Part shown: one piece after another, positions 14,928-29,876 of the stretch
Layout of the letters: every line of letters begins with the position of its first letter
Numbering within the stretch: position 1 is the first letter of the stretch
DNA from: Croceicoccus estronivorus
GTDB lineage: Bacteria > Pseudomonadota > Alphaproteobacteria > Sphingomonadales > Sphingomonadaceae
NCBI RefSeq assembly: GCF_001625325.1
Contig: NZ_JRQQ01000006.1
Location: 186,001 to 250,000 of the forward strand
Direction of reading: 5' to 3'
Length of the DNA stretch: 64,000 nt
Position numbers and translations under genes: made by a program
The notes under the pieces: generated by a model
What the model saw: the letters and a program-made list of their open reading frames with translations, nothing else
What the model was told of the DNA's origin: nothing
Database searches by the model: none

Positions 14928-17291
14928 TCATTTTCCAATGACCTGAAGCTTGCTCACAATTCCTGAGAAGGCTCCATCACCCTTGTATTCATCCGTTACC
15001 GTCGTGCTGGAATCGAACCCAACATCGAACGTGTCGGTCAGTTCCGTCGTCATGACGATAGGTTGCTCAATCCGGCCTTCCCCGATCTGGCGCCCATTTA
15101 CGCTGATGTGCATTGCGCCGCCGGTTCCCGGCTTCGGTCCATCCGCGCGGAAATCGAAAACGATCTGGGCCTTGCCGGGCGGCACGCGTTCCACAGCGGC
15201 TACGCGGAAGGTGCGCCTGGCCTGCGTCGACCCGGCCATCGTCACTATCGGATAGCCATCCTTCAAATAGAAGCTCCAGCCGCCGAAATGCCCGCCGAGA
15301 GCAGCCAGCACCCCATCTGCCGTCCCGGGCGCAGTCTGGATGTCGGCGGTCAGGCTGAAGCTGCCTGTCAGCCGGGGGCCATGGCCAGCAGGCACGCTGA
15401 CGCCTGCACCCCAGTAGGTATAGCTGTCCCGGGGCTTGGCCGCCTGCATCACCGCCGCCGAACGCTTGTCCACCTGATCGTCGATCGGGAACACCTGATT
15501 GCGCGCAGCTTCCTGGGCGAACAGCGCCTTCATCTCCGCCAGCTTTTCGGGATACTTGGCCGCCAGATTGGTTGCCTGCGAGAAGTCCTTCTCGAGATCG
15601 TAGAGTTCCCAAGGCCATTGCATAAGGTCGGTGCCCTTGCGCTCGTAGCCGATGTTCTGCGGGGTGGTGCCGGCCCACCATCCGTCATGGTAGATGCCGC
15701 GGTTGCCGATCAGCTCGAAATACTGGGTATGCCGTCGTCCCACCGCCTTGGGATCAACGAAACTGTAAGTCATGCTCACGCCATCTATCCGCTGCTGACG
15801 TGCGCCATTGACCACTGCCGGTTGCGGCAACCCTGCCGCCTCCAGAATGGTCGGCGCTATGTCAATCACGTGATGGAACTGGGTACGCAGGCCGCTGGTC
15901 CTGATCCGCTCCGGCCATGAGATCACGAGGCCGTTACGGACACCGCCGAGATGCGAGGCATAGGTCTTGGTCCACTGAAACGGCGCGCCAATGGCCCAGG
16001 CCCAACCCGCAGGATAGTTCTGGTTCGAACGCGGGCCGCCCAACTCGTCCAGGCGCGCCATGAGTTCGTCCGCCGTCTCGTTCGCGCCGTTGAAGAACGA
16101 GCCCAGCGTGTTCACGTTGCCATCGACGCCGGATTCCGCCGAACCGCCGTTGTCCCCTTCGATGAAGATAACGAGCGTATTCTCCAGCTTCCCCATGCGC
16201 TGCAATTCGTCGACCAGGCGTCCGAATTGTGCATCCTGATAGGCGAGCATCCCCGCATAGACTTCCATCATCCGTGCACTGATCTGCTTGCGTTCGGGCG
16301 TGAGCGAGGACCACGCGGGGATATAGTTCGGACGTGGCGTCAGTGCCGTGGCGGCTGGAACCACACCCAGATTCTTCTCCCGCGCCAGGCTTTCCTCACG
16401 CACCTTGTCCCAGCCCTGGTCGAACTTGCCCCGGAACCGGGCGATCCATTCGGCAGGTGCCTGTTGCGGCGCATGTGCCGTTCCCGGCGCGAAATAAACG
16501 AAGAACGGCTTGTCTGGATCGGCCGCCTGCTGATTGTGGAGCCACAAGATCGCATCGTCGGCCAATGCCTGATCCAGCATCTTGCCATCCGGCCCAGCCA
16601 CCGGAGTCACCCCCCGGTAGAGGGCAGGTGTGTACTGGTTGGTCTCCGCCCCGACGAAGCCGTAGAAATATTCGAAGCCAAGCCCAGTGGGCCACTGATC
16701 GAACGGCCCGGCGGCAGAGGTCGCACCCGGCTGCACGTTGTGATGCTTGCCGAACATCGCAGTGTTGTAGCCGTTCAGCCGCAGAACTTCCGCCACGGTT
16801 GCCGCGCTTTTCGGGATGATCCCGTCGTAGCCTGGGAAACCCATGGCGAAATCGGTAATCGCGCCGTTACCCATCATGTGATGATTGCGGCCGGTCAACA
16901 GCGCCGCACGCGTAGGCGAGCACATGGCAGTGGTGTGGAAGCGGTTATATTTCAGCCCATGCGCCGCCAGCCGGTCGAGATTGGGCGTGGGGATCGCCCC
17001 ACCGAAAGTCGACGCCGCAGCGAAGCCGACATCGTCGGTCATCACCAACAGCACGTTGGGCGCACCCGCCGGTGCGCGGACGGGTTGCGGAAAATCTGGC
17101 ACGGACTGGGCATAAGTCGAGCCGACCTTGCCCGTGAAAACCGGTGCCTTCGGCAGGATGACTTCACCGCTCGGTGACGCCTCCTCCGCCTGGGCATCGG
17201 CAGGCATCGCCATGGCCACCGCGGCGACACCGAATGCGCTGGCCAGCAGGCGCAGTGCACCACCCTGCCTCTTCAATCGGTTCGCTTTCAT
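14928..17291 (-). CDS. arylsulfatase (type I, formylglycine-dependent)
   Basis: This 787-residue exported protein has a signal peptide of about 35 residues (ending near ADAQAE). The catalytic motif CSPTRAALLTG has Cys124, which is converted to formylglycine by a sulfatase-modifying enzyme, and metal ligands lie in MTDDVGF (Asp86, Asp87). Length and the NHHMMGNGAITDF segment match the long sulfatase group that includes mycobacterial AtsA/AtsD. The C-terminal 150 residues form an extra beta domain. It should hydrolyse a sulfate ester in the periplasm. The start overlaps the PQQ dehydrogenase stop by 4 bases. No formylglycine-generating enzyme gene is in the window. Confidence 0.92.
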   Translation of the reverse strand: MKANRLKRQGGALRLLASAFGVAAVAMAMPADAQAEEASPSGEVILPKAPVFTGKVGSTYAQSVPDFPQPVRAPAGAPNVLLVMTDDVGFAAASTFGGAIPTPNLDRLAAHGLKYNRFHTTAMCSPTRAALLTGRNHHMMGNGAITDFAMGFPGYDGIIPKSAATVAEVLRLNGYNTAMFGKHHNVQPGATSAAGPFDQWPTGLGFEYFYGFVGAETNQYTPALYRGVTPVAGPDGKMLDQALADDAILWLHNQQAADPDKPFFVYFAPGTAHAPQQAPAEWIARFRGKFDQGWDKVREESLAREKNLGVVPAATALTPRPNYIPAWSSLTPERKQISARMMEVYAGMLAYQDAQFGRLVDELQRMGKLENTLVIFIEGDNGGSAESGVDGNVNTLGSFFNGANETADELMARLDELGGPRSNQNYPAGWAWAIGAPFQWTKTYASHLGGVRNGLVISWPERIRTSGLRTQFHHVIDIAPTILEAAGLPQPAVVNGARQQRIDGVSMTYSFVDPKAVGRRHTQYFELIGNRGIYHDGWWAGTTPQNIGYERKGTDLMQWPWELYDLEKDFSQATNLAAKYPEKLAEMKALFAQEAARNQVFPIDDQVDKRSAAVMQAAKPRDSYTYWGAGVSVPAGHGPRLTGSFSLTADIQTAPGTADGVLAALGGHFGGWSFYLKDGYPIVTMAGSTQARRTFRVAAVERVPPGKAQIVFDFRADGPKPGTGGAMHISVNGRQIGEGRIEQPIVMTTELTDTFDVGFDSSTTVTDEYKGDGAFSGIVSKLQVIGK

Positions 17292-21368: not shown

Positions 21369-23513
21369 TCAGAATTCCATGCTCAGATCGACGCCCCAGC
21401 TACGCGGTTCGCCAAGCTGGGCGACGGGAACGTCCCCGACCGCGAAGTGGGTCAGATAGTACTTCGCATTGGTGATGTTGCGCCCCCACAGGGCAACGCG
21501 CAGTCCTTCCACACCAGCCAGATCGGACAGACCAAACCGCCCATTCAGCAAGCCGTTTGCGCGGGTTACTACTTCAGGGTTATTCGCCAGTGCGAAATAT
21601 TTATCCTGCCAAGCGTAATTTACATTCATCTCCACAACACCAAGAGGAGTTACAGGAGACTTGTAGTCCGCCGACAGGGTAAAGCTGTTTTTTGGAGCAA
21701 AAGTGAACTTGAATAGATCGGTCACGTCGTTTCCGCCGAGATCGACGACCTTCTTGAACTTCGGATCGACGTAGCCGTAGCTGCCGCTGATCGTCATCCC
21801 GTCGAACAGCAGCGCGGTCAGGTCGGCCTCGAACCCCTGGGTGACCGCCTTGCCCGCATTGATGACATCGAACAGGCGCGGATTGAACGGATCAAAGACA
21901 TTGGTCTGGATGTCCTTGTATTTGCTGTAATAGGCAGACACATTGAAGCGGATACGCCGGTCGAACAGTTCCGACTTCAGGCCGGCTTCATAGGACACGA
22001 GCGTTTCCGGCCCGAATCCGGCCACGAAACGGGCCGGCGTGGTCGCTGTGGGATTGAACCCGCCGGTCTTGTAGCCTTTGGAAATCTTCGCATAGATGTT
22101 GACGTCGTCGCTGATATCGAACTGGATCGTCCCGGTGGGACTAAAATCGCTGAAGCTCCGGCTGCCTTCGGCATCGAGCAGGACGACCGTGGCCCCGCCC
22201 GGCGGCGTGCGGGTGGAAAAGACGTCCGCCTTGCGCTTATCCTTCGACCAGCGCGCGCCCACGGTGATGTGGAGCCGTTCGTCGAGGAACTGCGGGGTCC
22301 AAGTCGCCTGCCCGAACACGGCATAGGCCTTGTTGTTCCACTCGGTCTCCCGCGGACTGAGCCCGGAAGGCATGTTCGACAGATCGAGCCCATCCCCGGA
22401 CTCGCTGAAGTAGTAAAGGCCGCCGATGTATTTCAGCCCGCCATCCAGAGCATCGCCGATAAGCTGGAATTCCTGGCTGAACTGCTTCTGGTTGGTGGTG
22501 TTCACATTGTTGAACGGCAGGAAAGCCCGCACCGGGCCGGGATTGTAGACCTGGTTGGTTTCGTCGCGCAGCTTCCGGTATCCGGTGATCGACTTCAGCG
22601 TCAGATTGTCGTTCAGGTCATAGGTCAACGTCAGGTTGTGCCCCTGGACCCGGGAATCGCCCGGCCGCAACACCGCGCTGCCCGAACTGCCCGAGCGCGC
22701 CCTGACTTCGTCGGGATAAAGTGGCACGGCCTGATTGAACGGCGAAGTGTCCTCGATCCATGAGGAATCGTACGTGTAGCGAGCTTCGAAATTATCACTC
22801 GGCCGCCACAGCAAGGCGCCTCTCACCGCCTGACGATCCGTATCGCCGAAGCGCTTGGAACCCGCCCCCAGATTGCGGACAAAACCATGCTTCTTCACCC
22901 GAACATAGGTCAGTTCGGCCGCGAGCGTCTCGCCGATCGGAACGTTCACGGACGTGCGCGAGCGGAATTCGCTGCGGCTGCCAAAAGTGAGGCTCTGCTT
23001 CCCCTTCCATTCGCCCAGTTCCGGCGGGCGGGTGATGAAGTTGATCGCCCCGGCGGTGGCGTTGCGACCGTAAAGCGTACCTTGCGGGCCGCGCAGCACT
23101 TCCACCCGCTCCAGCTCCGCCAGTTCGTTGGCCAGGCCCTGACCCTTGGCGACGTAGACGCCATCAACATAGACCGCCACCGGCGCATCGCGCGTCTGGG
23201 TCGCGGACGGTTCGCCGATGCCCCGGATCGTGACGCGCAGGGTTGTACCAGTATTCGGGTGGGGTGAAACCTGCATGTTCGGCACGGCAGATGACAGATC
23301 GGCCAGCGAAACGACGCGCTTGGCTTCAAGCGCGTCGGAATCGAGCGCCGAGATGGAGATCGGCGTATCCTGCAGCGATTCCGACCGCTTCTGCGCAGTC
23401 ACGACGATTTCCGACAAGCCACCGCCTGTCGATTCCGTGTCCTGCGCAAACGCGGGGGCTGCCAGCCCGAGCAGTCCCAAAGCGATGGCATAGCGCGATA
23501 TGAGATTATCCAT
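21369..23513 (-). CDS. TonB-dependent outer-membrane receptor
   Basis: The protein has 714 residues. A signal peptide ends at APAFAQ, followed by a TonB-box-like SEIVVTAQKR and the plug domain (about 35-165: VYVDGVYVAKGQGLANELAELERVEVLRGPQGTLYGRNATAGAINF). The 22-stranded barrel then ends in Phe (LSMEF). It belongs to the large sphingomonad group of receptors for organic substrates rather than siderophores, given its catabolic operon. It is probably the uptake gate for the compound handled by the downstream SDR, PQQ and sulfatase genes. A strong inverted repeat lies just upstream. Confidence 0.92.
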   Translation of the reverse strand: MDNLISRYAIALGLLGLAAPAFAQDTESTGGGLSEIVVTAQKRSESLQDTPISISALDSDALEAKRVVSLADLSSAVPNMQVSPHPNTGTTLRVTIRGIGEPSATQTRDAPVAVYVDGVYVAKGQGLANELAELERVEVLRGPQGTLYGRNATAGAINFITRPPELGEWKGKQSLTFGSRSEFRSRTSVNVPIGETLAAELTYVRVKKHGFVRNLGAGSKRFGDTDRQAVRGALLWRPSDNFEARYTYDSSWIEDTSPFNQAVPLYPDEVRARSGSSGSAVLRPGDSRVQGHNLTLTYDLNDNLTLKSITGYRKLRDETNQVYNPGPVRAFLPFNNVNTTNQKQFSQEFQLIGDALDGGLKYIGGLYYFSESGDGLDLSNMPSGLSPRETEWNNKAYAVFGQATWTPQFLDERLHITVGARWSKDKRKADVFSTRTPPGGATVVLLDAEGSRSFSDFSPTGTIQFDISDDVNIYAKISKGYKTGGFNPTATTPARFVAGFGPETLVSYEAGLKSELFDRRIRFNVSAYYSKYKDIQTNVFDPFNPRLFDVINAGKAVTQGFEADLTALLFDGMTISGSYGYVDPKFKKVVDLGGNDVTDLFKFTFAPKNSFTLSADYKSPVTPLGVVEMNVNYAWQDKYFALANNPEVVTRANGLLNGRFGLSDLAGVEGLRVALWGRNITNAKYYLTHFAVGDVPVAQLGEPRSWGVDLSMEF

Positions 23514-23533: not shown

Positions 23534-23552
23534 GTACGATATTGTATCGTAC
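23534..23552. promoter_or_regulatory. perfect inverted repeat upstream of the TonB receptor operon
   Basis: GTACGATA-TTG-TATCGTAC is a perfect 8-base dyad 20 bases before the receptor start codon, in the leader or promoter of the five-gene operon. Its half-site TATCGTA recurs at 27781, upstream of the TauD/MFS genes. The most likely binder is the hybrid HTH regulator encoded from 24072, which sits between the two sites. This is inference from position. Confidence 0.5.
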
Positions 23553-24071
23553 TATTTTGATGTCATGCCTGTATGCGTGCTGTTGAGTATGGAGTTGGGT
23601 GTGGGATTCCGGTGCCGCTTGCCCACCTGCACCAGGTGTTCAGGCGCTCATGCACGCCGGGTCCGCGCACGTCATCGCGGCAGGGTTCACCCCCGAGACC
23701 ACAACGCGAACCGCAGGCCCGGCGGTCAGCCTGACCTACGCGAATGCTCTAGGGGTTTTCGCCAGCCGGAAACCGATATGTTCATCATATCCCTCGCCCA
23801 CTCTTTTGTGTGCGCCTCGTGCCGTTGGGTGAAACGACTGAGGCGTGCCTGTGTTCGGCATGAGAGCAGGCTAGGATTGGGGGGCGTGTCCTAGCATCCC
23901 TCATTCGGAGTATGCGTGCGAGCGCCGGATAGATTAGAAATGCACAAGAAAATCGGCCAATTCCCTTAGCTTGACGAATACTCGCAAAATTTGAAGCGCC
24001 ACCCTTGCGCAGCGAGTTATAAATATCAGGCAGGGAGAAAAAACAGAGGCCGGACACAAAGAGGAAGCGTG
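23553..24071. other. intergenic region between divergent TonB operon and regulator
   Basis: About 520 bases without a convincing gene. Two overlapping plus-strand frames (23565-23894) lack ribosome sites and family motifs. The right end contains the regulator promoter and the ribosome site AGAGGAAGCGTG before the ATG at 24072. The region just before it (about 23930-24040) is locally AT-richer, consistent with a promoter. Confidence 0.5.
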
Positions 24072-25610
24072 ATGGAGCGAATCATCAGCATCGGCGAAAG
24101 CGACCGCAGCCTGCTCAAGGAACTGGCCCTCTCGGCCCGCACGCATAGCTATGCGCAACGGTGCAACATCATTCTCGCCTCGGCGGTTCCGGGCACATCC
24201 GCTGCGGATATTTCACGGCAACTCGGTATTTCGCAGGCAACCGTCCGCCGTTGGCAAAAGCAGTTCGCCGAACATGGCGTCGCCGGCCTCGCCGATGCGC
24301 AGCGCACCGGGGCACCGCGCCAAATCGGTGAGCAGACGTACGCCGCCATCTTCGATCTCCATGCACAAGGCCTGGACACCCGGCGTATCGCGACCCGGAC
24401 GGGGGTCAGCCAGAGTTCGGTATCGAGGATTATCCGCAAAGCTCAACCCATCCAACCGCCCGATACGGCTTCATGCCCACAAGTGGACAAGGTCGTCGAA
24501 CAACTGACGGTAGAATTGTTCGAAAGCCTTGCAGACGATATACCGCTGAGCCGCTTCCTCACAAAAGTGCAGGAAGCAACCGGATCCGATTATGGGATCG
24601 TCCTGGCATTGTCTCAGGGCAAGAAGAAGCCCACCCTCGTACTGTCGGACGGGCGTTCGCTCGAAGGAACACTTCCATACCTGGAAAAACACTATCACAG
24701 GGAACTGCTTGCAGACCTTTCCGAAGGGGTCGTCACCCTCGTCAGCGATCTTTTTTCACCAGAAGAGCTGAGACAAACGGATTACTACAAGGAATATCTG
24801 TCGCATTACGGGATCGGCCACATCCTCGGTGTGGATATTGGCACCGTGCGCGGCATTTCCGGCAAGTTCCGACTGGCGCGCCTGGAAACGAGGATGGACT
24901 TCGGAGCACGGGAACGGGCGATCTGCCGGGGTCTAGTCCCCTATCTTCGCGCAGCGCTCAATCTTTTTGTACAGAGGATCGATACCGAAGCAGAAAAGGA
25001 TGCCCTGTCCCTCACCGTGTCCGGCATGTCCGTTGGCAGCATCATGGTCGATCCCGACGCCCACGTCCTCGAAGCCAATCCCCCCGCGCTGGCGATATTA
25101 GGCGAGGCCGATGGCATCATCACGACAGCGGGCAGGATCGCATTGCAGAACCCCAGCCAGTCCCGGCAGTTGCACGAACTGATCCGCCGAAACGCCGAAG
25201 CATCGATCGATCAATCGGTATCGGGGCTGACCCGCGCCATGCTGGTGGACCGGCCGTCGGGGAAGGAAAGCATCAGCCTGCTTGTCCGCCCGGCGACCCG
25301 CTATAACCGCCGCCAACTGACCATACGGCCCACGGCGCTGATCCACGTTGTCGATCCTGCCCAGCCGCGCGTGACCGTAATCAACGCCTTGACCGAACTG
25401 TTCGGCCTGACCCAGGCGGAAGCGAAAGTCGCCCTGTCACTATCCAACGGGTTTACGATCAACGACACCGCCCGCCTGGGCGCCACCACCAAGAACACCG
25501 TGCGTTCGCAAGTCCGCTCGATCTTCTCCAAGATGGGCATAAACCGCCAGTCCCAACTTATCCGAACCACATTGATCAGCGTCGCATTATTTTCCCTCAA
25601 GCATGAGTAA
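24072..25610 (+). CDS. hybrid transcription regulator: IS630-type HTH domain fused to LuxR-type HTH
   Basis: The ATG at 24072 has AGAGGAAG upstream, giving 512 residues. Residues about 10-120 form a double HTH like that of IS630 transposases and HTH_29-type regulators (RCNIILASAVPGTSAADISRQLGISQATVRRWQKQF; then TRRIATRTGVSQSSVSRIIRK). The middle (about 140-430) is a GAF/PAS-like sensory part (SDYGIVLALS; SIMVDPDAHVLEANPPAL). Residues about 445-505 form a GerE HTH (FGLTQAEAKVALSLSNG; TKNTVRSQVRSIFSKMG). The DDE nuclease is absent, so it is a regulator and not a transposase. It lies between two catabolic operons and probably controls both. Confidence 0.85.
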   Translation: MERIISIGESDRSLLKELALSARTHSYAQRCNIILASAVPGTSAADISRQLGISQATVRRWQKQFAEHGVAGLADAQRTGAPRQIGEQTYAAIFDLHAQGLDTRRIATRTGVSQSSVSRIIRKAQPIQPPDTASCPQVDKVVEQLTVELFESLADDIPLSRFLTKVQEATGSDYGIVLALSQGKKKPTLVLSDGRSLEGTLPYLEKHYHRELLADLSEGVVTLVSDLFSPEELRQTDYYKEYLSHYGIGHILGVDIGTVRGISGKFRLARLETRMDFGARERAICRGLVPYLRAALNLFVQRIDTEAEKDALSLTVSGMSVGSIMVDPDAHVLEANPPALAILGEADGIITTAGRIALQNPSQSRQLHELIRRNAEASIDQSVSGLTRAMLVDRPSGKESISLLVRPATRYNRRQLTIRPTALIHVVDPAQPRVTVINALTELFGLTQAEAKVALSLSNGFTINDTARLGATTKNTVRSQVRSIFSKMGINRQSQLIRTTLISVALFSLKHE

Positions 25611-25639: not shown

Positions 25640-26878
25640 TCACTTTCCGTTTGCCGCGCGGACAGGCAAGATGGCGGCGGCCGCGAACGCCAAGACCAAC
25701 AGGAACTGTTCGAAGGCGGGCGTATAGCTTCCGGTGGCATCAAAAGCGGAACCGACGATGTGCAGCCCCAGCAAGTTGAGCGGAAGCATTACGGCGGACA
25801 TGAGCCCCATCGCCCCACCCAGCGCCAGCACCCCGAACCGCCTGCCGACGATCATCGCCCAAAGCGGCATGACACCGCCGACCGCAGGGCCCGAGAAGAT
25901 CACGGCCGCCAGCAAGAACGGATAGGCAGGCATGGCGATCAGCGCCGCGAACAAGCAAATATTGAGCGCGACCACCGCCAGAAACAACCATCGCGGATCG
26001 ATCCGGTCGGCCAGAGCGCCCAGTCCGAGTTTGCCCGCCACAGCCGTCCCGGAGATGGCCGACACCAAAGCCGTGCCTTGCGCCAGGCTGAAACCGCGAT
26101 CCGTTGCATAGGCAATCAGGCAGGACAGCAAGGCACCGTTCGTCGCCATGACTGCGCCGATCGCGAAAGCGATCAGCCAGAAATCCTTTTGCACCAGCAC
26201 ACTGCTGAACCGTCTGGAGGCAGGCACCGCATCTGCTTCACTCGTCGGCGTGCGGACATCGGCGGGCAACAAGATCCAAACGAGGCCGAAGATCACAGCG
26301 GAGGTCGTTACGGCAAAACTCGTCATCGCATACCGCCAGCCCGCTGCGTCGATCAGGATCGCCAGGATAGGCACCACGACCACCCCTCCGGTCGACATTG
26401 CGACGGATGCGATGCCGATCGCCAGCCCGCGCTTGCGGGTGAACCAGCGGGACACGAGTGTCGAAGCCGTAATCGGGCCAAGCGCGGCCGCACCAGGGGC
26501 GAGGAGAAAGAACGCGGCGAGCAGCGCCGTCATCACCTGATTGCTGGCGGCAATCGTCACCCAGCCTGCAGCGAACAGCAGCGCGCCACAGCTCACCACG
26601 AGCCGGCCTGACACGCGGTCGAGAGTCCGTCCGACAAGCGGCCCGAAGACCGCCATACCGATCAGCAAGGTCATGAGGCCGAGATTGACCGTCGCACGTG
26701 GCAGGCCGAAATCGAGTGACAGCGGCTTCAGAAGCACCGCAAAACCATAGGAAATACTGCCGATCGCAACCATCTGCGCGAAGAAGAGCAATCCCAACGC
26801 CTGCCAGCGTTGCGCCTCGCGAACCGACTCGGTAACGGCCATCGGCTCCACGCTGCTTTCCGCGGGGAGCATCTTCAC
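25640..26878 (-). CDS. MFS transporter (oxalate/formate antiporter-like or monocarboxylate type)
   Basis: The 412-residue product has about 12 predicted membrane helices. Between helices 2 and 3 lies FGPLVGRTLDRVSGR, a form of the MFS GxxxDRxGRR loop motif, and helix 4-5 has RGLAIGIASVAMSTGG, typical of the MCT/oxalate-formate subgroup. It should carry an organic acid or a catabolic intermediate over the inner membrane. Its start overlaps the stop of the TauD-like gene by 4 bases (ATGA), so it is translated with it. Substrate and direction are not visible. Confidence 0.88.
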   Translation of the reverse strand: MKMLPAESSVEPMAVTESVREAQRWQALGLLFFAQMVAIGSISYGFAVLLKPLSLDFGLPRATVNLGLMTLLIGMAVFGPLVGRTLDRVSGRLVVSCGALLFAAGWVTIAASNQVMTALLAAFFLLAPGAAALGPITASTLVSRWFTRKRGLAIGIASVAMSTGGVVVVPILAILIDAAGWRYAMTSFAVTTSAVIFGLVWILLPADVRTPTSEADAVPASRRFSSVLVQKDFWLIAFAIGAVMATNGALLSCLIAYATDRGFSLAQGTALVSAISGTAVAGKLGLGALADRIDPRWLFLAVVALNICLFAALIAMPAYPFLLAAVIFSGPAVGGVMPLWAMIVGRRFGVLALGGAMGLMSAVMLPLNLLGLHIVGSAFDATGSYTPAFEQFLLVLAFAAAAILPVRAANGK

Positions 26879-27747
26879 ATGCCGCCAGTCGGGCCGACCG
26901 GGCAGTCGCCGACAACCGTGACCCGTTCGAGATGGCGAGAACCGACGTAGTCGGCAACACCGTAGTGCTGGGTGGAGCGGTTATCCCAGAAAGCGATGGA
27001 GCCGACCTCCCAGCGGAAACGCACTTGATATTCCGGCCGCTTCACCTCGTCGAACAAGCGCGTCAGCAGCGCGTCGCTTTCCTCCTCGGAGACATCCAGA
27101 ATTCGGGTGGTGAAGCCACTGTTGACGTAGAGCAACCGCTCGCCCGTTTCGGGATGGATGCGCACGACGGGATGGCTCTGCGGGGGATGACGTTCCAAAA
27201 ACGCAGCGCGCTTTTCCTCGGTATCGAGGTGATGGCCAAAGGCGGCAAGGCCGGTATGAACGGCGTTGAGCGTCTCGATGCGCGCCTTCAGTTCATCGTC
27301 GAGACCGGCATAAACCGCCGCCGCGTTGCACCAAAGGGTATCGCCCCCCAAGGGCGGGATCTTGTAGGCCAGCAGGACGGAGGAAGCCGAAGGCGTATCC
27401 CGAAAGGTCGTATCGCTATGCCAGAAATCGGCAGCGGGCGCGTGCCGCCCTTCCTTCAATCCCCCTATGGAATCGAGCACGAGCATTTCCGGATGATCGG
27501 CATGTGCCGAGAGCGGATGCACCTCGAGTTCGCCGAAGCGCCGACCGAAGGCGACATGTTGCGTTCGAGTCAGGGATTGGTTGCGGAAGAAAACGACCTT
27601 GTAGCGCAGCAGCGCCTTGTGGATCAGGTCGATCTCGGCATCGCCCGCATCCGCGATATCGATGCCCCCGATCTCTGCACCGATCAAGGGCTGAACCTGT
27701 CTCACCGTTACGCCGGGTATTTTCGGCACGATCCCACCATCCAGCAT
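26875..27747 (-). CDS. TauD/TfdA-family 2-oxoglutarate-dependent dioxygenase
   Basis: The chosen ATG at 27747 (MLDGGIVPKIPG) has GGGAG six bases upstream; in-frame ATGs up to 27774 are alternatives. The 290-residue enzyme has the iron triad His110-x-Asp112 (FWHSDTTF) and distal His261 (NRSTQHYGVADY), with a 2-oxoglutarate-binding Arg a few residues later (RHLERVTVVGD). The family hydroxylates taurine, 2,4-D-type ethers or alkyl sulfates, releasing sulfite, phenol or sulfate. It is coupled to an MFS carrier and follows a ThDP enzyme, so a catabolic cleavage of an imported acid is likely. The substrate is unknown. Confidence 0.9.
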   Translation of the reverse strand: MLDGGIVPKIPGVTVRQVQPLIGAEIGGIDIADAGDAEIDLIHKALLRYKVVFFRNQSLTRTQHVAFGRRFGELEVHPLSAHADHPEMLVLDSIGGLKEGRHAPAADFWHSDTTFRDTPSASSVLLAYKIPPLGGDTLWCNAAAVYAGLDDELKARIETLNAVHTGLAAFGHHLDTEEKRAAFLERHPPQSHPVVRIHPETGERLLYVNSGFTTRILDVSEEESDALLTRLFDEVKRPEYQVRFRWEVGSIAFWDNRSTQHYGVADYVGSRHLERVTVVGDCPVGPTGGM

Positions 27748-27783
27748 ATGGTCAACTCCCATTCTCATTCTCAAGAATTCTAT

Positions 27784-27801
27784 CGTATCGTTCAGGATAC
27801 G
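27784..27801. promoter_or_regulatory. inverted repeat upstream of the TauD-like gene
   Basis: CGTATC-GTTCAG-GATACG (6-base arms, 6-base centre) lies in the 84-base gap between the ThDP gene and the TauD-like gene. It overlaps TATCGTA (27781-27787), the half-site of the perfect dyad before the TonB receptor. It may be an internal promoter/operator of the same regulon; function is inferred. Confidence 0.4.
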
Positions 27802-27831: not shown

Positions 27832-29463
27832 TCATAGCTGGAGAGGGATCATTCCGGTTATGTCGATTTCAATCAGGTTCGGACCCGCCGCCGCCATAGC
27901 CTCGGCGAAAGCTTCCTCGAACGCTGCCACCGTGGACACCCGTCGGGACGGCAGCCCCATGGCTTTCCCGAGCATTTCAAAATCGGGCGTGTGCAAGTCG
28001 ACAGCGACATGAGGAGTGCCTGCCAGCGATTGCAGGTATTTCAGGCTGCCATAGCCCTTGTTGTTGAAGACCAGCACCGTCACATTCGTGCCGGCCTCCA
28101 CGGCGGTTGCCAGTTCGCCGAGGTTGAGCATGACCCCTCCATCCCCGTGGAGCACAATCGTACGTCGACCCGAACCGATCGCCGCCCCGATCCCGATGGG
28201 CAGCGCAGGCCCGATGGCTAGGCTGGCGATATATGTGAATTGACGCGGCTGACGCACGGGCAGCCGCAGGCTTCCCCATGTGGTGCCTGTCATGGTGGCA
28301 TCGCAGACCACATTCCTGTCGACCGGGGCCAGCCGGTCGATCACATCGCAGATACGTGCATGATGCGAGCCGATGCGTTTTTCCGTTTCCAGCGCCAAAG
28401 ATTTCCTGACGCGTGCCGCCAGAGCAAGGTAGCCGTCATCGATTGCGATAGCCCCGAGGCGACTGGCGAGCGCTCCGGCGCAAAGCCCAGAATCTCCCAC
28501 GATCCCGATCTCCGGGTGGTAATTGCGCCCCAGAACCGTCGCATCGATATCGATATGGATCAGACGAGGCGGCAGCCGCAAAGACCAGAACCAGGTCGCC
28601 ACCGTCTGAAAGCGCGTACCGATAGCCAGCACGGTATCAGCCTGCTCAAGCAATTCGCGAAAGGCCGGATAATGGGTCTGGCTGCCCACGAACAGCGGAT
28701 CGTGTGTCGGGATAACCCCCCGGCCATTCAAGGAACTGACGATCGGTGCACCCAGCCGCACGGCGAGGTCACGTAGGTCCTGCGTCGCGCGCGCGCTGAC
28801 GCACCCCCCGCCGAGCCATAGCAGCGGACGCTTTGCCTCACCCAGCAGGTCCGCCGCTTTGTCCAGCAAGGCTTCGTCGGGTACCGGGGCGGGCGGTTGT
28901 ATGAAGCACGCATCCGCTTCACCGACATGAGCAGACAGCAGGTCGGTCGGTATTTCCACCGCGCCGGGCTGGGGTCGGCCCGAACAGATATCCGCCACGA
29001 CCGAAAGGATGGTGTCGGTAATCCGCTCCGCATACATTACGCATTCGCTTCGCCGCGTAACGCTGCGCAGCATCGGAAGCTGCCCTTCCGCGTCATGGAT
29101 GAAGCCTTTGCCCCTGCCCAGATGTACGCGATCGACCTGAGTGGTGATGAGCAGCACGGGGGATGATGCGAAACCTGCCTCGTACAGGCCGTTCACCGCG
29201 TTGGCGGTTCCCGGACCGGTGCTGACGATCGCCACCCCAAGTTCGCCCGTGGCCCGCGCATATCCATCGGCCGCGTGCACTGCCCCCGCTTCGTGGCGTG
29301 CCCCGATCAGGCGAATATGCTCTCTTCGCGCCAAGGCATCGTAGAGTGCAAGGTTATGTTGGCCCGGAACGCCGAATACCGTGCGAACCCCCAAGGCCTC
29401 CAGCGCATCGCAAACCGCATCACCCCCTGTCCGGGCGGCGGCGACAGAAGTGACGGAGTTCAT
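27832..29463 (-). CDS. thiamine-diphosphate-dependent enzyme, acetolactate synthase-like
   Basis: The 543-residue protein has all three ThDP-enzyme domains. The catalytic Glu58 lies in RHEAGAVHAADGYAR, and the cofactor/metal motif runs GDG (440-442) to Asn-Asn (467-468) in LVFNNKGYG. It is of the AHAS/benzoylformate-decarboxylase/POX superfamily. No small subunit gene is next to it, and its context is catabolic, so a decarboxylase or lyase role is more likely than isoleucine/valine synthesis. Its start overlaps the stop of the amidohydrolase remnant by 4 bases. It is 84 bases before the TauD-like gene. The reaction is not determinable from sequence. Confidence 0.88.
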   Translation of the reverse strand: MNSVTSVAAARTGGDAVCDALEALGVRTVFGVPGQHNLALYDALARREHIRLIGARHEAGAVHAADGYARATGELGVAIVSTGPGTANAVNGLYEAGFASSPVLLITTQVDRVHLGRGKGFIHDAEGQLPMLRSVTRRSECVMYAERITDTILSVVADICSGRPQPGAVEIPTDLLSAHVGEADACFIQPPAPVPDEALLDKAADLLGEAKRPLLWLGGGCVSARATQDLRDLAVRLGAPIVSSLNGRGVIPTHDPLFVGSQTHYPAFRELLEQADTVLAIGTRFQTVATWFWSLRLPPRLIHIDIDATVLGRNYHPEIGIVGDSGLCAGALASRLGAIAIDDGYLALAARVRKSLALETEKRIGSHHARICDVIDRLAPVDRNVVCDATMTGTTWGSLRLPVRQPRQFTYIASLAIGPALPIGIGAAIGSGRRTIVLHGDGGVMLNLGELATAVEAGTNVTVLVFNNKGYGSLKYLQSLAGTPHVAVDLHTPDFEMLGKAMGLPSRRVSTVAAFEEAFAEAMAAAGPNLIEIDITGMIPLQL

Positions 29464-29876
29464 GCCTTTCCTCCCGCAATCGCGGGGCTCGCACCGCGAA
29501 CGGGCCGTCGGGGGGACTGACCGGTGGGCGTGCCTTCCCGCTGGATCGAAACGCCGCTCACGATTGTCGCGGCATAGCCGTCCGCGCCTTGCGTCAGGCG
29601 TCGCCCGCCAGCGGGCAGATCGTGCCGCACACCGTGCTTGTGGAGCTTGAGCCGATCCAGATCGATCACGTTGAGATCGGCCTTGAGGCCTTCGGCCAAT
29701 ACCCTCCGATCATGAAAGCCCGCCGCACGTACGGGCTTCCGACTCAGCGCATTGATGACCCATTGCAGCGGAAGTCGGCCGTTCGCCCCGTCGCGCACCC
29801 AATGGGCGAGCATGAATGTCGGGAAGCTGGCATCGCAGACCAACCCTCCCCGAATAACGAGATCCAAGTCAGACAT
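29460..29876 (-). pseudogene. internally deleted D-aminoacylase/amidohydrolase-family protein
   Basis: The frame is open for 138 residues. The first 15 (MSDLDLVIRGGLVCD) are the start of an N-acyl-D-amino-acid amidohydrolase; from residue 16 (ASFPTFMLAHWVRDG) onward it is the C-terminal end of the same family, normally beginning about 420 residues later. HxH metal ligands, the carboxylated Lys and the whole TIM barrel are missing, so it cannot be an active hydrolase. The family has a D-A-S-F-P-T-F-M motif preceded by VGMICD, which suggests recombination at a shared V/I-C-D-A codon run. It still couples to the ThDP gene. Confidence 0.75.

Follow-up and report, generated by a model that had tools for sequence, protein, structure and literature searches.

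The window analysed here (the whole stretch of 64,000 nucleotides, whose positions are used throughout) holds a gene that appears to join two kinds of DNA-binding domain in one protein, with a helix-turn-helix (HTH) pair of the IS630 transposase type at one end and a LuxR-type HTH at the other. The locus raises the question of whether such a hybrid is genuine, how a regulator might have come by a transposase-type head, and on which DNA sites its two ends might act.

Table 1. Features of the hybrid regulator locus (positions in the window)
Feature	Position	Strand	Description and basis
Sulfatase	14928..17291	-	Domain scan; 75% identical in G107, 50% in G061
TonB-dependent receptor	21369..23513	-	Domain scan; divergent from regulator; 75% identical beside G107 hybrid
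Perfect palindrome GTACGATATTGTATCGTAC	23534..23552	.	19 bp, 8-bp arms, 21-39 nt before TonB gene
Element B, AGCATCCCTCATTCGGAGTATGCG	23893..23916	+	Block conserved across the five hybrid upstream regions; some 119 bp further up than A
Element A, GAGTTAYAAATA	24014..24025	+	Starts 58 nt before ATG
Hybrid regulator gene	24072..25610	+	512 aa; ORF listing, orthologues, alignment
N-terminal IS630/Tc1-mariner-type paired HTH	24072..24446	+	Residues 1-125; Pfam, NCBIfam, profile-profile comparison, PDB profile
Sensor region	24501..25364	+	Residues 144-431; second half weakly PAS-like; homology to headless LuxR-type regulators over its length
C-terminal LuxR/GerE HTH	25365..25586	+	Residues 432-505; GerE below cut-off, profile matches to VraR
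MFS transporter	25640..26878	-	Domain scan; 45% identical in G418, 46% in G953
TauD/TfdA-family dioxygenase	26875..27762	-	Domain scan; 73% identical in G418
TPP-dependent enzyme	27832..29463	-	Domain scan; 75% identical in G061 and G953

Both ends of the hybrid are homologous to DNA-binding domains

The initial annotation had proposed a single frame of 512 residues with a double IS630-like HTH at its N-terminus, a GAF/PAS-like middle, a GerE HTH at its C-terminus and no DDE nuclease. The frame holds: it opens at its ATG, directly preceded by AGAGGAAG, and runs without an internal stop to the stop codon at 25608-25610. The double HTH was recovered by four Pfam models above their cut-offs, namely HTH_23 (63.8 bits against 24.6, in two stretches), HTH_29 (51.4 against 28.1), HTH_32 (40.4 against 33.7) and HTH_28, and when the head was split in two and the halves were scanned separately, each half matched HTH models. 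With the NCBIfam IS630 transposase model, whose cut-off is 100 bits, the best stretch (residues 32-94) scored 52.3 and corresponded to model positions 4-65 of 299. A profile built from five orthologues aligned with nine IS630-type N-termini, all from genomes of the same order, at a probability of 99.5% over 122 columns that take in both HTHs and the linker. Among PDB profiles, the same five-orthologue profile matched the DNA-binding domains of SETMAR (E 5e-5) and Sleeping Beauty (E 1e-4) at residues 55-128, and Mos1 weakly (E 0.15).

In Tc1/mariner transposases, the linker between the two HTHs contains a basic GRPR-like motif. Most of the IS630-type transposases in the profile comparison have GRPRT there, and the hybrids keep GA(P/R)RQI across the aligned orthologues. 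The likeness to IS630-family transposases ends with this paired N-terminal HTH and its basic linker: as the initial annotation had noted, the DDE nuclease is missing, with none found in residues 127-306 or 297-433, scanned as separate pieces.

The description of the middle as GAF/PAS-like stood in part. Residues 297-433 gave PAS matches, sub-threshold only (E about 0.05), and residues 127-306, scanned as a separate piece, gave no match of any kind; the label is plausible. No autoinducer-binding or receiver domain was found before the GerE HTH at E 1 in the two middle pieces, and the hybrid belongs with sensor-region LuxR regulators rather than with quorum-sensing LuxR proteins or NarL-type response regulators.

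For the C-terminal end, GerE scored 19.7 bits (E 6.6e-4; cut-off 23.5) on the C-terminal piece alone; the value of 40.7 for the whole protein has the N-terminal HTH as its best-matching stretch and is invalid as a score for this end. The proposed GerE HTH is borne out by the orthologue profile, which at residues 430-493 matched the LuxR-type HTH of VraR (E 1.5e-4) and, more weakly, RcsB and GerE. The sub-cut-off score of the single C-terminal piece would suit the reverse arrangement, in which DNA is read mainly by the transposase-type head and the LuxR end is vestigial. We consider this very unlikely, given that conservation among the orthologues is highest in the LuxR end (58% invariant columns, against 40% in the middle and, lowest, 43/125 or 34% in the head, counted over as few as five sequences) and that the first-listed headless paralogue scores equally low (18.8 bits), with GerE detected at E 0.01 in 9/12 headless paralogues.

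Domain searches of a kind that could have exposed a lone DNA-binding domain thus found, by sequence profile, that both ends of the protein are homologous to DNA-binding domains. Structure prediction, the other check proposed at the outset, agreed with the expected fold only in outline: AlphaFold models made from single-sequence input place helices where the two HTHs are expected, at a confidence (mean pLDDT 36.7 for the whole protein and 49.9 for the head) that leaves the models too poor to use.

Origin and conservation of the transposase-type head

From about residue 137 to residue 505 the hybrid aligns end to end with a family of LuxR-type one-component regulators, found in the same genomes, that share its C-terminal GerE HTH and mostly have no N-terminal paired HTH; the head is therefore an add-on. 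Some match to the hybrid was found in 142/249 genomes of the family sample. Among the matches listed, three were full-length, five places in G089, G221 and G031 matched the head only, and the rest started no earlier than residue 111. Frames of about 365-410 aa hold many of these last matches. Some others have longer open frames, and those inspected by eye (P0003, L014 and L016) revealed no second HTH.

Full-length hybrids number five, in three genera of one family: that of the window (G000), one from the same genus (G061), one from a second genus (G107) and two from a third (G418 and G953). They were recovered from 3/249 genomes of the family, 2/396 of the order and 1/385 of the class, and, by genus sample, from 2/94 (genus of G418), 1/5 (genus of G107) and 2/4 (own genus); these samples overlap, and in the order and class searches no more than three candidates were scored for each genome. 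None of the 257 matching records of a plasmid collection held a full-length hybrid; one covers at least 80% of the query, from residue 61 and at 27% identity, and spans two annotated genes. A tblastn search of genome contigs found no relative, and none was found in viral contigs. Judged by this survey, the fusion is real, conserved and, in the samples searched, rare.

The five hybrids form one clade on a long stem, with support of 100/100, in a 61-row tree built on the C-terminal part; several long branches meet outside the hybrids and two hybrids deviate in composition, which leaves the deep order of this tree unsure. In a tree of the head (16 rows) they again form one group on a long stem (95/97), with no transposase close by. 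The simplest reading of this clade would be a single capture event some time ago. That a regulator acquired DNA-binding domains at both ends by capturing one from a transposase had been suggested from the window alone, and it now draws support from the Pfam and NCBIfam matches, the profile comparison, the C-terminal tree and the PDB profile matches: a transposase DNA-binding domain is joined to a family that also exists without it.

Such an arrangement recalls SETMAR, the human fusion of a SET methyltransferase with a mariner transposase, and other host-transposase fusions, in which a DNA-binding domain of the Tc1/mariner-IS630 type likewise sits on a host protein. Unlike these, the hybrid is bacterial, keeps only the DNA-binding part, carries it at the N-terminus, and has a partner that is itself a DNA-binding regulator. 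In animals, host genes are described as having captured the DNA-binding domains of transposases (PMC9062482, PMC10027918). Passages of a review on mobile-element recruitment in prokaryotes name regulators derived from phages and antitoxins, and no fusion to a transposase head (PMC8987985). Among the titles and abstract openings of open-licence literature, we found the fusion described nowhere under transposase-derived or two-ended LuxR regulators in bacteria, and nothing on it under sphingomonad LuxR catabolic operators or sulfatase/TauD regulators.

The head could alternatively be no capture at all, the paired HTH being a bacterial domain common to regulators and transposases by descent, with no transposase as donor. 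The long stem of the head tree would suit this, as would the modest identity (25-42%) of the closest heads outside the hybrids, among the matches listed; no donor was found among the sequences compared. A 155-aa frame in another genome of the family (L104:1450-1914, minus strand), which may be a stand-alone regulator or an IS fragment, also carries an IS630-type paired HTH without a nuclease. Against common descent stand the 122-column match, which spans both HTHs and the linker, and the plasmid records resembling the head (n=293): among the 60 listed, 39 were annotated under the match, 38 as IS630 transposase and one as 'transposase'. We accordingly see little chance that the domain was simply inherited. 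The head had no match in phage records, and no second copy was found in its own genome at E 0.01.

We also asked whether the head has been maintained. The four other hybrids are 57-63% identical to the window protein in the alignment. Within the head, 42-72% of codons differ at the third position, compared with 17-44% at the first and second; dN ranges from 0.20 to 0.58, and dS from 0.99 to 2.67 in the 5/10 pairs for which it could be computed, the other five being saturated. As read from these substitutions, the head is under purifying selection in five orthologues from three genera. Conservation is concentrated in the second recognition helix (SQSSVSRI), where 9/10 positions are invariant among the five hybrids, compared with 6/11 in the first recognition helix and 28/104 in the remaining head. 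Outside its recognition helices the head is thus far less conserved than the LuxR end, as might be expected if it no longer bound DNA specifically and served in dimerisation or stability, leaving the LuxR end alone to act on DNA. The near-invariance of the second recognition helix and the preservation of the inter-HTH linker suit a retained DNA contact instead, and we judge a head without specific binding to be unlikely.

Gene company and the TATCGTA dyads

All four other hybrid loci have neighbours in common with the window, which include the genes listed in Table 1; the G061 locus has the TPP enzyme, a sulfatase and a 627-aa relative of a shortened amidohydrolase in the window. By comparison, among the headless relatives from outside the family the two best-scoring ones, G774 and G853, have loci (16 and 18 kb) in which none of these neighbours occurs except for one PQQ-protein match at 29%. 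The regulator therefore travels with the cluster. From the family names of its genes (sulfatase, TauD-type dioxygenase, PQQ dehydrogenase and TonB receptor), we infer that the cluster may serve to degrade sulfate esters or organosulfur compounds related to them, as the combination of genes suggests.

The shortened amidohydrolase, a 138-aa frame at 29460-29876 (minus strand), resembles an amidohydrolase that has lost a large internal portion, and in L039 the 627-aa relative adjoins the TPP gene. A remnant of a TonB receptor lies divergent from the G418 hybrid (L078:24-160, minus strand), with residues 70-98 and 700-714 of the window receptor matched within 300 bp, suggesting that a divergent TonB gene was once present at this locus too.

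The initial annotation had further pointed to TATCGTA-containing dyads at two flanking operons and proposed that one protein might loop the roughly 4 kb of DNA between them. Both dyads exist and lie near gene starts, and TATCGTA or TACGATA occurs five times in the window, against a mean of 1.35 in 60 shuffles (maximum 4); a single palindrome contributes two of these five occurrences, its arms. The motifs nevertheless differ, the first being GTACGATA-N3-TATCGTAC (23534-23552) and the second CGTATC-N6-GATACG (27784-27801; 6-bp arms). Neither is found in place at any of the four other loci. The first, whose only match without mismatch in its own genome is the site itself, has one match there with at most 4 mismatches (3 mismatches, in L039, 16-34 nt before the listed start of the amidohydrolase frame). 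The second has no match with at most 2 mismatches in three of the four, and in L086 has one 2-mismatch match outside the TPP-TauD gap, which is about chance level. In the window, 69 bp separate the TPP gene from the TauD gene (TauD start taken at 27762); the second dyad sits between these two, inside a run of genes on the same strand, and is therefore probably not at the operon's promoter. The palindrome before the TonB gene better fits another dimeric repressor; it is perhaps the operator of such a regulator and bears no apparent sign of belonging to the hybrid. Looping over 4 kb is thus highly improbable. We also considered GTAC-N11-GTAC as a common operator and rejected it, as it has one site in the window, one in L039 and none in the three other loci.

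Conserved control elements upstream of the hybrid

The five hybrid upstream regions are poorly alignable apart from two blocks, elements A and B. An exact match to A occurs once per genome in 5/5 hybrid genomes, starting 52-64 nt upstream of the hybrid ATG; since it is exact only before the regulator, it is not the site at other operons. With at most one mismatch, A has 2 to 4 places per genome, compared with 5 to 8 for a backward control, and is therefore not a widespread regulon motif. Measured between the CAT of B and the first base of A, the spacing is nearly constant at the five loci (119, 121, 116, 119 and 119 bp); in the window both elements lie in the 558-bp intergenic region that separates the TonB gene and the regulator. 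Elsewhere in these loci, the next-best A scores 22.3 (L040:16740), against 29-33 at the true sites, and the next-best B 18.7 (L078:1361, inside the G418 regulator gene), against 30-52; in the 64 headless-relative loci, scores peak at 16.6 for A and 12.0 for B. The possibility that A is a relic of a terminal repeat was examined in 23 loci of IS630-type or related heads and discarded, the best score being 14.7. A search for promoters of the sigma-70 type found no sigma-70 pair at A.

Building on the architecture, the single clade, the selection on the head, the shared gene company and these conserved control elements, we think it likely that the gene encodes a domesticated host-transposase fusion, that is, a probably ligand-sensing LuxR-type regulator of a sulfate-ester or organosulfur-like catabolic cluster whose ancestor gained an IS630 paired HTH at its N-terminus once, and whose two ends would act on B and perhaps A. 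The middle region would sense a compound of the pathway. The LuxR end, as a dimer, would sit on B, its candidate operator, in the control region common to the gene and the divergent operon. A second, asymmetric site would be bound by the transposase end, and A, directly before the gene, is the best candidate for it; A is also a candidate promoter element, and might function as a core promoter instead of an operator. By holding A and B together, about 119 bp apart, the protein might couple autoregulation, through activation or repression, to control of the divergent uptake and catabolic operon. The strictest version of this reading, a transcription factor with two independent readers (the transposase-derived one on A, a LuxR dimer on the dyad B) that bridges the two sites and ties its own expression to that of the cluster, is a tentative proposal, and somewhat doubtful. 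Were it true, the hybrid would be a bacterial counterpart of transposase capture in eukaryotes; if both ends bind, it would show, in a small natural system open to testing, a new regulatory connection that arose in bacteria through transposase capture, with candidate sites at hand.

A possible parallel for B comes from the headless paralogues. Weak matches to B led to a palindrome, CGCATAACCC-N4-GGGTTATGCG, before a gene that precedes headless paralogues and that we take, from its sequence, to be of the LLM-type flavin family. This near-perfect palindrome, which sets these paralogues apart from the hybrid, belongs to one clade of 16 headless paralogues. The LLM start is in view in 13 of their loci, and in 11/13 the best site (at most 5 mismatches) ends 64-105 bp before it; of the remaining two, L057 has a second 5-mismatch site in the same range and L063 has none. 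The palindrome is absent from six LLM-gene loci outside the clade. With at most 6 mismatches it has 40 matches over all the loci compared, against 18 expected from no shared site, compared with 18 for a reversed-arm control that has zero at 4 or fewer, in counts that include overlapping loci repeatedly. It is likely, on this distribution, to be the operator of the headless paralogue clade. B shares its outline (GCAT..., N4, ...ATGC/ACGC), with 11-14 of 20 positions agreeing, and is the top match of the intergenic region to the paralogue motif in 4/5 loci, at scores reached by 8, 2, 63 and 76 of 400 shuffles; in G953 the top match lies away from B (58 of 400 shuffles). As the motif was discovered via B, the comparison is not independent, and the resemblance of B to the predicted paralogue operator is only suggestive. 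Near-perfect copies of the paralogue palindrome occur in L024, L030, L032, L042 (from the genome of the window), L056, L058, L061 and L065-L068.
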